Assembly: GCA_017656235.1 (NCBI GenBank)
Contig: JACDOF010000014.1
Location: 1-64,000 of the forward strand
Reading direction: 5' to 3'
Source of the DNA: Brevibacillus sp.
GTDB taxonomy: Bacteria; Bacillota; Bacilli; Brevibacillales; Brevibacillaceae
Length of the DNA: 64,000 nt
The position numbers were made by a program, and so were the translations under genes. This document shows positions 3,328 to 42,613 of the stretch, piece by piece. Under the pieces are notes generated by a model. It was given only the letters and a program-made list of their open reading frames with translations. It did no database searches and was not told where the DNA came from. The stretch's first letter is position 1. Each line of letters opens with the position of its first letter.

Positions 3328-4138
3328 GTGGAATACTTTATCTATTGTGACGAGTCTGAGCAGAAAGGTCATTTATTCAGCAAATTTTACGGCGGCGCAC
3401 TAGTTCGCAGTATACATATTAGTGAGGTAATACAGACATTAGAAGCGTGCAAAAAAAAATGGTTTAACTGGTGAGGTTAAGTGGACAAAAGTAACTCATC
3501 ATTATTTAGATAAATACATTAGCTTAATAGATACATTCTTTGACCTAATTAAGCAAGACAAAGTGAAGATGAGAGTCATGTTTCAACAGAATTTATTTGC
3601 GGAACCAAGGTTGAAGGGACTAACTAAACAACAAAGGGATGATTCGTTCTTTTTGTTATACTATCAATTTTTTAAACATGCTTTTGGTTTGCAATACTCT
3701 AATGAAACTGATCGCCCGGTTTATGTAAGGATATTTTTTGATCAGTTTCCAGACACTAAGGAGAAAGTGTCGATATTTAAAGACTATATCCATCGGCTAC
3801 AATATCAAACGGCATTCTTGCAGGCAAAATTAAAGATAAGGAAAGAGGACATTGTTGAAGTTACCTCTCATGATCATGTTGTCCTTCAATGCGCAGATAT
3901 AGTAACGGGTGCAATGTATTTTAGACTAAACAACCTCCACAGAGCCAAAACTGAAGGGCAAAGGGTACGCGGTAAACGCACACGAGCTAAAGAACAACTA
4001 TATAATCATATAAATGCAAGAATCCGAGATATTTACCCTCACTTTAATATCGGTATATCTACAGGGTTTAAAGGGGATGCGAGAAACAAATGGAACCATC
4101 CCTATAGACATTGGAGATTTATGCCTAATGAGACGTAA
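3328..4138 (+). pseudogene. DUF3800 protein, frameshifted at an A9 run
   Basis: The first part starts at GTG 3328 (VEYFIYCDESEQKGHLF), the DUF3800 signature with the conserved acidic YxDES, and ends at TGA 3472-3474. The second part continues in the next frame to 4138 and contains the rest of the domain (GEVKWTK, RIFFDQFPD, LQCADIVTGAMYF, KGDARN). The two frames join exactly at the A9 run at 3451-3459: with eight A the reading becomes CKKNGLTGEVKW, as expected for the family. DUF3800 has a predicted RNase H-like fold and is common on mobile elements. Base use is AT-richer than the neighbours. It may be a broken gene, a sequencing slip or a slippage site. A promoter-stem-terminator unit follows. 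Confidence 0.75.
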
Positions 4139-4182: not shown

Positions 4183-4294
4183 TAAGAAGAAGCTCTGTCG
4201 AACCGAAGGCTTGCGTGCCTACGTGGGCTACTTAGTAGGGGAGATGGAGCTCACTACATGAACGGTTGCTCTCGATTAATACGAGAGTTTTTTT
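4183..4294 (+). ncRNA. Candidate structured small RNA downstream of DUF3800
   Basis: About 110 bases lie between a promoter and an intrinsic terminator. A 9-bp closing stem (with two G-U pairs) joins 4191-4199 to 4243-4251. Inside it are two small hairpins, AGGC/GCCT (4207-4210 with 4217-4220) and CTAC/GTAG (4228-4231 with 4235-4238), giving a three-way-junction shape; a competing helix CCTAC/GTAGG is possible. The terminator is CTCTCG/CGAGAG (4269-4287) followed by seven T. Structured RNAs that neighbour DUF3800 genes have been reported under DUF3800 motif names (from memory). Whether this is one of them is untested. Confidence 0.55.
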
Positions 4295-22930: not shown

Positions 22931-24163
22931 ATGGGCTTTTATGACGATATGTATCCTGTAGAACGGAAAAAACGTCGTGAGCACGGTGTCGGACGCCTGA
23001 TTCTGACCTCGATTACCTCCGCCGTAATCGGTGGCCTGGTTGTTTTGTTGATGCTGCCGACACTGTCGAAAGCAGGTTATATTTCGATGATGCAGTCCAA
23101 TCAGGCGTTTGCCAAAGACGAGACGACCGGCGCAGTCGCCACCAGCACGCTTGTTCAACCCGTCTCGGTCAGCGTCGATACGGCTACGGTGGAAGCGGTA
23201 GAGAAAGTAGAAGATGCGATTGTCGGCGTGATCAACATTCGGCGGGTAACCAACTTCTGGACGCAGCAAACCGGAACGGTCGAGAGCGGCCAGGGTTCGG
23301 GCGTCATCTTTGAGAAGAGAAACGGAAAAGCGCATGTCATCACCAACTACCACGTGATTGACCGGGCGGAGCGGGTCGAAGTCTCGCTGCCAAACGGGGA
23401 AAAGGTAGAAGCCAAAATCCTGGGGGCCGACCCCTTTACTGACCTCGCTGTGCTGGAGATTGACGGCTCTCAAGTAACAACGGTCGCGGAACTGGGCAAC
23501 TCCGATACACTGAAGGTGGGCGAACCGGCCATTGCCATCGGCAATCCGCTCGGGTTGGAGTTCTCCCGTACGGTAACGCAGGGGATCGTCAGTGGAGTGG
23601 ACCGGTCGATGCCGGTGGACCTCGACAATGACGGGCAAACCGATTGGGAACTGGACGTGATCCAGACCGATGCGGCGATCAACCCGGGGAACAGCGGTGG
23701 AGCCCTGCTTAACATTCGCGGTCAAGTGATCGGGATCAACACGCTGAAGATCGCGCGGGAAGACGTAGAGGGCCTGGGCTTTGCCATTCCGATCAACGAT
23801 GTGAAGGTGATCTCCAAGCGGTTGATGGAAGATGGCTACCTAAAGCGTGGTTACCTGGGGATCACGCCGCGTGATCTGACCACCATTCCGCGCTACGCCT
23901 GGAAGGAAGAGCTGCATCTGCCGGACGATGTGAAAGCAGGTGTGCTGATCTGGAATATTGGCCAGTTTACACCGGCAGCCAAAGCAGGACTGCGCCAATA
24001 CGACGTGATTGTGAAGCTGGATGATCAAGAGATCAGCAACGGAGCCCAACTGCGCAAGTATCTGACGCTGAAGAAAACAGCGGGACAAACGGTGGAAGTC
24101 ACCTATTACCGCGACGGTTTCCTCAAGACGACTACCGTGACGCTGGGCGAGCAGGGGAGATAA
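22931..24163 (+). CDS. htrA: HtrA-type S1C serine protease with PDZ domain
   Basis: The 410-residue protein is anchored by one helix (about 22-42) and faces outward. The protease domain (about 85-285) has His141 (NYHVID), Asp171 (FTDLAVLE) and Ser255 (NPGNSGGAL); a single PDZ domain covers about 300-400 (GVLIWNIGQFTPAAKAGL). It degrades misfolded exported proteins. GGAGGAAGGAGAGAGG precedes the ATG. The position after walJ is the standard Bacillales context. A short inverted repeat CGAAA-CGA-TTTCG (22841-22853) lies upstream and may be an operator. Confidence 0.96.
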   Translation: MGFYDDMYPVERKKRREHGVGRLILTSITSAVIGGLVVLLMLPTLSKAGYISMMQSNQAFAKDETTGAVATSTLVQPVSVSVDTATVEAVEKVEDAIVGVINIRRVTNFWTQQTGTVESGQGSGVIFEKRNGKAHVITNYHVIDRAERVEVSLPNGEKVEAKILGADPFTDLAVLEIDGSQVTTVAELGNSDTLKVGEPAIAIGNPLGLEFSRTVTQGIVSGVDRSMPVDLDNDGQTDWELDVIQTDAAINPGNSGGALLNIRGQVIGINTLKIAREDVEGLGFAIPINDVKVISKRLMEDGYLKRGYLGITPRDLTTIPRYAWKEELHLPDDVKAGVLIWNIGQFTPAAKAGLRQYDVIVKLDDQEISNGAQLRKYLTLKKTAGQTVEVTYYRDGFLKTTTVTLGEQGR

Positions 24164-24173
24164 GCCAGACCAA

Positions 24174-24205
24174 GAGGCACAATCCGTTCGTGCCTCTCAG
24201 TTTTA
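24174..24205 (+). terminator. Terminator after htrA (copy 1 of a repeated hairpin)
   Basis: GAGGCAC (24174-24180) pairs with GTGCCTC (24190-24196) across AATCCGTTC, then TCAGTTTT. A near-identical hairpin lies at 24820-24842. Confidence 0.75.
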
Positions 24206-24819
24206 AAACAACGTGTCGTGAACACGAGTGCGGGCGTTTTTCGCGCTCACTTCCGGTGGCCAACCAGCGAAGAAGCAGTCCAGGACCGCTTTACGACGAT
24301 CCGCAGGGGCAGCGTCAAAACGATGTCCCGCTCCGACGTAATGCTGCTGCCGCTGTGATTTCCCTGCGGGTCCGTCGTTTCGCTGGCAGGTTGGCCAAAA
24401 CGCTCGCTGGCGAAAAACGGCCCGCACTCGTCCCAGACGAGAGTTTTGAAACTCGTTCAGCACTGTACGGTGCCCTGTTCGACCCAAGATGCCTTCGGTA
24501 TCCTGCAGATTGAACACAAAGCGAGTTCTGACAGGAGAGCGGCCATTTTCCGAATGAACGACTTTGCCAACCATCCAAGCGGAGCAAGCCCGAAGCGGGG
24601 GCATCCGGGCGCAACATGGACAAACGGCGGAGCAGCGCTGCTTTTGCGCCCGCCCGCTTCGGGATGGCGAAGCGGACAAGTCTGGCTCCATTGGTGGTTG
24701 GCAACGGAGTGAAGAAAGGCAAATGGCCGCTTCCCTCTATCCAGAAACCTTCCTGCATCCTTGTTGGTCAGGCAACAGCGCGAGCAGGACTTTGGCTCCT
24801 TCGCGATACTTAGTCTCGT
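24197..24819. other. Non-coding stretch between htrA and bioY with large nested palindrome
   Basis: About 620 bases have no frame with both a ribosome site and protein-like composition; the open frames on both strands are Arg/Ser/Pro-rich shadows. From 24538 to 24731 the two halves are inverted, imperfect copies of each other. Weak pairing continues outward on both sides (for example GTTCTG near 24525 with CAGAAAC near 24741). Two near-identical terminator hairpins bound the stretch. It could be a large structured RNA or a degenerate inserted element. Confidence 0.6.
24538..24731. repeat. Nested interrupted palindrome (hairpin-forming element)
   Basis: Four perfect arms nest in order: AGCGGCCATTT/AAATGGCCGCT (24538-24548, 24721-24731), TTGCCAACCA/TGGTTGGCAA (24564-24573, 24695-24704), CCCGAAGCGGG/CCCGCTTCGGG (24589-24599, 24653-24663) and GGGCGCAA/TTGCGCCC (24607-24614, 24644-24651). 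The centre holds the palindrome AGCAGCGCTGCT (24631-24642). Forty paired positions in register cannot be chance. Confidence 0.85.
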
Positions 24820-24846
24820 GAGGCACGATCGGTTCGTGCCTCTTTT
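24820..24846 (+). terminator. Terminator hairpin (copy 2) upstream of bioY
   Basis: GAGGCAC (24820-24826) pairs with GTGCCTC (24836-24842) across GATCGGTTC, followed by TTTTC. Stem identical to the htrA terminator at 24174; only three loop bases differ. Confidence 0.8.
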
Positions 24847-24942: not shown

Positions 24943-25509
24943 TTGGGTACGAAACACACCAAACTGAAAATGTTGATTCTTTGCGCCATGTTTGCGGCGA
25001 TCACGGCAGTACTTGCACAAGTGGAGATACCGCTGCCGATCGTCCCCATCAGCGGCCAAACATTGGCGGTAGGGCTGACGGCGACCATACTGGGGAGCCG
25101 GTACGGAGCCGTCTCCATGATCTGCTACCTGCTGCTGGGGGCGATCGGTGTGCCTGTCTTTGCGGAAGCAAAGGGAGGGGCCCACGTGCTGATCGGACCA
25201 ACCGGTGGATACCTGTTCGGCTTTGTCGTGACGGCTTACGTGACAGGGTGGATTCTGGAACGGACGCGCTTTACCTTTCCGATGGCCATGATCGCCAATA
25301 CCGTGGGGATGGTGATTACCCTGGCCATGGGGGCTGTCCAGTTAAAATACGTAATGGACATGTCCTGGGCCAACGCGCTTGCAGTAGGGGTGTATCCATT
25401 TATCGTGGTCGGACTGATCAAGGCATTTCTGGCCAGCTGGATCGGCATTATTGTCCGGAAGCGGCTGATACAAGCCAACCTGATCGAAAATCTGCCGAAA
25501 GCCGCTTGA
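24943..25509 (+). CDS. bioY: Biotin transporter substrate-binding subunit BioY
   Basis: BioY is the membrane S-component of the biotin ECF importer. The 188-residue protein has about six hydrophobic helices and the family motifs QVEIPLPIVPISGQTLAV (about 25-43), LGAIGVPVFAEAKGG and GPTGGYLFGF. It begins at TTG 24943 behind AAAGGAGG. No ECF ATPase genes are here, so it would use the shared energising module encoded elsewhere. The BirA operator implies repression by biotin. Confidence 0.97.
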   Translation: MGTKHTKLKMLILCAMFAAITAVLAQVEIPLPIVPISGQTLAVGLTATILGSRYGAVSMICYLLLGAIGVPVFAEAKGGAHVLIGPTGGYLFGFVVTAYVTGWILERTRFTFPMAMIANTVGMVITLAMGAVQLKYVMDMSWANALAVGVYPFIVVGLIKAFLASWIGIIVRKRLIQANLIENLPKAA

Positions 25510-42510: not shown

Positions 42511-42613
42511 AACCTAGCTAACAATCAGGCTGCAGACAAACCTGCGTCCAGGGAAGGGTGCCAATTGTCCGTTACGAGCGCCTTTGCCTGGCCAACCGAG
42601 CGGAGAAACGACC

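Follow-up and report, generated by a model that had tools for sequence, protein, structure and literature searches.

The nested palindrome that lies between the htrA-like and bioY-like genes, in a 64,000-nucleotide stretch of Brevibacillus DNA (the window), is very probably module B of a non-autonomous element (MITE) of the IS1182 group. Matching copies of terminator-like hairpins were found on the two sides of MITE and IS1182 insertions. We consider it likely, with less confidence, that the IS1182-group transposase gauges its target by fold and not by a fixed spacing. Both joinings would fall where the stem of a hairpin begins and ends, which would make the duplication of 11-31 bp the stem-loop itself and double the terminator.

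Layout of the element between htrA and bioY

The palindrome, reported earlier from a sequence-only reading, was present where that reading had placed it. Its paired arms (24538-24548/24721-24731, 24564-24573/24695-24704, 24589-24599/24653-24663 and 24606-24614/24644-24652) enclosed a central palindrome, GCAGCGCTGC, at 24632-24641. Folded as RNA, the segment 24500-24770 gave an energy of -117 kcal/mol (z = -4.56), which was equalled by 0 of 200 shuffled sequences; the opposite strand gave z = -3.80. The extent proposed by the sequence-only reading was too narrow, as the palindrome is part of a 623-bp element, and a second hairpin, with a fold stronger than that of module B, had been overlooked (Table 1).

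Table 1. Features of the element and its surroundings in the window
Feature	Position	Strand	Basis
htrA-like serine protease gene, upstream	22931-24163	+	ORF; homologue with 89% identity at the equivalent position in sister genome G001
Left hairpin copy, AGGCACAATCCGTTCGTGCCTCT	24175-24197	.	21/23 identical to 24821-24843
Composite element (probable MITE), modules A-B-C, 623 bp	~24198-24820	+	Aligned dispersed copies and boundaries
Left terminal inverted repeat (TIR), degenerate, CAGTTTTAAAACAAC (consensus CAGNNTGNAGACAAA)	24198-24212	+	Alignment with intact repeats elsewhere; 3 mismatches
Hairpin module A	24224-24431	+	18-bp outer arms 24224-24241/24414-24431; fold z = -5.50
TIR-like start of module B, CAGATTGAACACAAA	24506-24520	+	1 mismatch to TIR consensus
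Hairpin module B (the nested palindrome)	24538-24731	+	Arms, fold, dispersed sites, compensatory changes
Right-end module C, degenerate TIR at ~24808-24820	24770-24820	+	Matching segments beside other copies
Right hairpin copy, then T-rich sequence	24821-24843	+	Near-copy of 24175-24197
bioY-like gene, downstream	24943-25509	+	ORF; 81% identity homologues in sister genomes G001 and G002

Both modules were flanked by a short hairpin, AGGCAC..GTGCCTCT. The upstream copy adjoined the element without a gap and its T run was gone; the downstream copy kept its T run and is presumed to be the working htrA terminator. A BioY scan of a collection of genome contigs matched only three Fictibacillus loci.

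Module C had its own TIR variant (CAGGAGACAAAG...) and was inverted at the left end of two further copies (L026 and L010). Since module C is found inverted at one end or the other of further copies, the elements seem to swap ends. Elsewhere in the window (42526-42612), CAGGCTGCAGACAAA, a perfect terminal repeat of IS1182 type, was followed by the GGCCAACCGAGCGGAG motif seen in the MITE hairpins; this segment probably represents a truncated relative of the element.

No Rfam family matched the region of the element at gathering score. The only Rfam match in the window was a DUF3800-VIII RNA (RF03075, 53.7 bits) at 4189-4253, just 3' of the ORF at 3563-4138.

Dispersed copies, their ends and an IS1182-family partner

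The element is repeated at dispersed sites and carries terminal inverted repeats. Comparison of the region with its own genome (3.6 Mb) returned 66 matching pieces, and searches with each hairpin module (A, 24210-24440; B, 24495-24755) gave at least 40 candidates. Pattern counts identified at least 55 A sites and at least 63 B sites in this genome, with 0 matches to the reversed patterns. Module A preceded module B wherever both were present. Copies in the genome were often truncated, and tandem A-B-A-B arrays occurred. Three tandem arrays (L005, L007 and L012) carried a similar short hairpin, of the type CCGCTC...GAGCGG, between successive elements, which suggests either repeated insertion into the duplicated hairpin or amplification of the unit.

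Relatives of the B type, ~75-78% identical, were found in both sister species, G001 and G002, where module B stood alone between two TIRs in units of ~262-266 bp. TIR-bounded single units measured ~250-570 bp and contained no transposase. The element had no match in 57 genomes outside the genus, and no similar DNA was found in phage and plasmid records.

Copies were bounded by the terminal inverted repeats CAGnnTGnAGACAAA; when aligned they started with CAGATTGCAGACAAAG and finished with CTTTGTCTACACGCTG, which form imperfect inverted repeats of ~15 bp. Such ends are also those of IS1182-family insertion sequences. Sister genome G001 contained an intact insertion sequence (IS) in several copies, 1545 bp long with a 499-aa transposase; that of locus L150 scored 491.5 bits against NF033551, for which the cutoff is 270. 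The G001 IS ends, CAGATTGCAGACAAA...CTTTGTCTACAGGCTG, were as in the MITEs, and the MITE and the intact IS1182-family IS of the sister species have their terminal repeats in common. IS1182-family ISs (NF033551) differ from the MITE in encoding a transposase, whereas the element here has none and carries large internal hairpins.

At two loci in G001 (L152 and L153), IS1182 copies lay ~6 kb apart, with AAAGAACCGAGTTTTGTCGGTTCTTT to the left of one and to the right of the other. The two copies apparently have one hairpin in common, which suggests recombination between copies or a composite insertion.

A search of the element's own genome for an IS1182 transposase gave weak matches below the cutoff only, and the one of these that was tested (C12) was an IS1634-family protein. 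Current mobility in this genome is unsupported, as no IS1182 transposase was found there. For this reason, and from the divergence of the flanking duplications, the family looks old in this genome. The window copy is probably old and immobile, given its diverged flanking duplications and degraded ends.

Pairing within the internal hairpins

Among 45 B elements from three species, compensatory double changes were present at 13 of the 47 consensus pairs. The outer arm read GCGGCCA, GCGTCCC or GTAGCTC according to species, each with a matching partner. Comparison of these sequences indicates that the internal pairing is maintained or repeatedly restored. On the + strand, G-U mispairs stood to A-C mispairs at 13:4 in module B and 13:6 in module A, as counted pair by genome over pairs predicted on both strands, a weak excess that depends in part on the folding strand.

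The pairing could conceivably be kept as an aid to mobilisation, with the hairpins acting as DNA during transposition in the form of folded single-stranded or cruciform ends. We hold this to be possible but doubtful. Hairpin B lies between TIRs in three species and keeps its pairing while its sequence changes, and the same transposase system appears to pick hairpins as targets. Against this, a module was partly deleted in two copies (L021, 376 bp, and L025, 337 bp), yet both retained two TIRs and a duplication.

It is less probable, and on balance unlikely, that selection keeps the hairpins as a non-coding RNA, or as a regulator acting at the RNA level (a stabilising 3' UTR, for instance), which transposition happens to have spread. 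The compensatory changes and the mild G-U excess would suit such a role, and transcription from htrA would cross the element to reach the downstream terminator. However, copies face either way with respect to the terminator, modules A and B fold more favourably on opposite strands, and Rfam offered no match. DNA-level correction of quasipalindromes, moreover, can give compensated changes without selection.

The sequence-only reading had offered a structured RNA or a mobile element made of inverted copies. A structured RNA is not established: the pairing is compensated, but the element lies in both orientations and a DNA cause is possible. The mobile element is retained. Its description as inverted copies holds loosely, and it is better described as a MITE whose terminal repeats are of IS1182 type and whose interior holds hairpin modules. 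As support for an element, that reading had named numerous copies at unrelated loci with duplicated flanks, and these were indeed found. Compensatory changes, which it had named as support for an RNA, were seen across three species, but they are compatible with either an RNA or a DNA cause.

Repeats of the REP/BIME/REPIN type are likewise extragenic, palindromic and present in high copy number. A repeat of this kind, moved by a RAYT (IS200/IS605-like) transposase, would also be intergenic, modular and found in tandem, as the element is; we nevertheless judge this origin highly improbable. The hairpins of the element are ~200 bp, not 20-40 bp, its 15-bp TIRs are of DDE type and shared with a DDE IS, and its target duplications are long. 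Y1-type elements make no such TIRs or target duplications, and the proposal is contradicted by an IS1182 partner whose ends are identical. A group IIC intron was also considered, and was abandoned given the TIRs, the duplications and the IS1182 partner.

Terminator hairpins at the insertion sites

The terminator-like hairpins flanking the MITE and IS copies varied by locus, and matched each other across the element. Flank matching was assessed for 62 TIR-bounded copies, with mismatched flank pairs as the control. The match between a copy's own flanks lay above the 99th percentile for mismatched pairs in 22 of 26 copies in G002, in six of seven MITEs and eight of 12 ISs in G001, and in eight of 17 copies in the element's own genome (G000). 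Many duplications were perfect, among them those flanking L141 (AAGCGTCCGGGTTCGCACCCGGACGCTC) and the L150 IS (AAAAAGGGAAGCCGGGTCGGCTTCCCTTTTT). Beyond the genus, in G049 and G015, two ISs of the IS1182 family showed the same hairpin duplication. The htrA-bioY gap of G001, an empty site in another species and not in another strain, contained a single terminator, GAGGCGCGA...TCGCGCCTCTTTT, with the element absent. Insertion into the htrA terminator would account for the hairpin copies on either side of the element in the window.

Terminators are often paired, and the flanking hairpins might in principle be independent or convergent terminators instead of a target duplication. Many insertions do lie between convergent or same-direction genes, although this classification is crude and some loci are spanned by open frames. 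This explanation is scarcely credible, as the flanks match per locus and not between loci, often with no mismatch over 21-31 bp, loop included, and it is contradicted by the mismatched-pair control.

In total, 46 duplications were identified among TIR-bounded MITE and IS copies, with lengths of 11-31 bp and a median of 23. Of these, 35 formed a palindrome whose stem scored at least 6, compared with 3% of shuffled sequences, and in 34 of the 35 the foot of the stem lay no more than 2 nt from each end of the duplicated segment. What is duplicated is the entire hairpin, from one foot to the other, and in most copies the duplication directly abuts the element ends. Folding of the 32 nt downstream of the element gave a median of -14.3 kcal/mol, compared with -4.5 kcal/mol for same-locus controls (p = 2.6e-22). 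Relative to the terminator the element had no consistent orientation, and both were found. One IS1182 copy in G001 (L149) had a duplication of only 8 bp (ATGATATA) at an AT-rich site with no clear hairpin. Hairpins may therefore be preferred and not required.

The target duplication made by DDE transposases is normally of fixed length. Under the preferred reading, in which the transposase gauges its target by fold, an IS1182 transposase would move the MITE in trans, as their common ends suggest. The target would be a folded hairpin, either cruciform or single-stranded, and the element ends would be joined at both feet of its stem. Gap repair would then copy the stem-loop and leave the hairpin doubled, and tandem arrays would arise where a duplicated hairpin was struck again. 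As a rule at least one of the two hairpin copies retains its T run. Termination is therefore probably preserved, which would make insertions cheap and let copies accumulate. The retention of a working terminator would explain why the host tolerates so many copies.

The ends and sequences of the BOX and RUP repeats of pneumococcus differ from those of the element here, from which they are set apart by description and not base by base. BOX and RUP (PMC3049150), and other bacterial MITEs, are likewise small, non-coding, dispersed, intergenic, structured and modular. Duplication of terminator hairpins by other bacterial MITEs or modular repeats was not found in the literature searched. Palindrome targeting by some IS1182 members is attributed to Siguier et al. 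2015 in passages of PMC4923244 and PMC5678879. For the staphylococcal elements IS1272 and TnSha1, of the IS1182 family, the same passages describe terminator hairpins chosen by structure, with no primary-sequence consensus, which are deleted or replaced without target duplication. As described there, the hairpin is removed, whereas here the whole hairpin is duplicated. In PMC5678879, path 6b of Fig 13 does draw a duplication, but solely as something the model allows, with no example in those passages. No earlier account of this MITE family, or of IS1182 elements duplicating hairpins, was found in the literature searched, outside which lie the main IS-family reviews.

In 46 copies, MITE and IS together, the ends of the duplication track the feet of a hairpin, though the best-studied member of the family, IS1272, removes its hairpin. 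If a target measured by its fold is the correct reading, these insertions would be a natural case of the duplicating path that is merely drawn for IS1272 in that figure, and the element could enter terminators and leave termination intact. This natural set of insertions makes the reading of DNA secondary structure by a transposase testable. The finding also accounts for one kind of large intergenic palindrome in these bacteria, which might otherwise pass for a new structured RNA, and it points to a route by which terminators may be multiplied.
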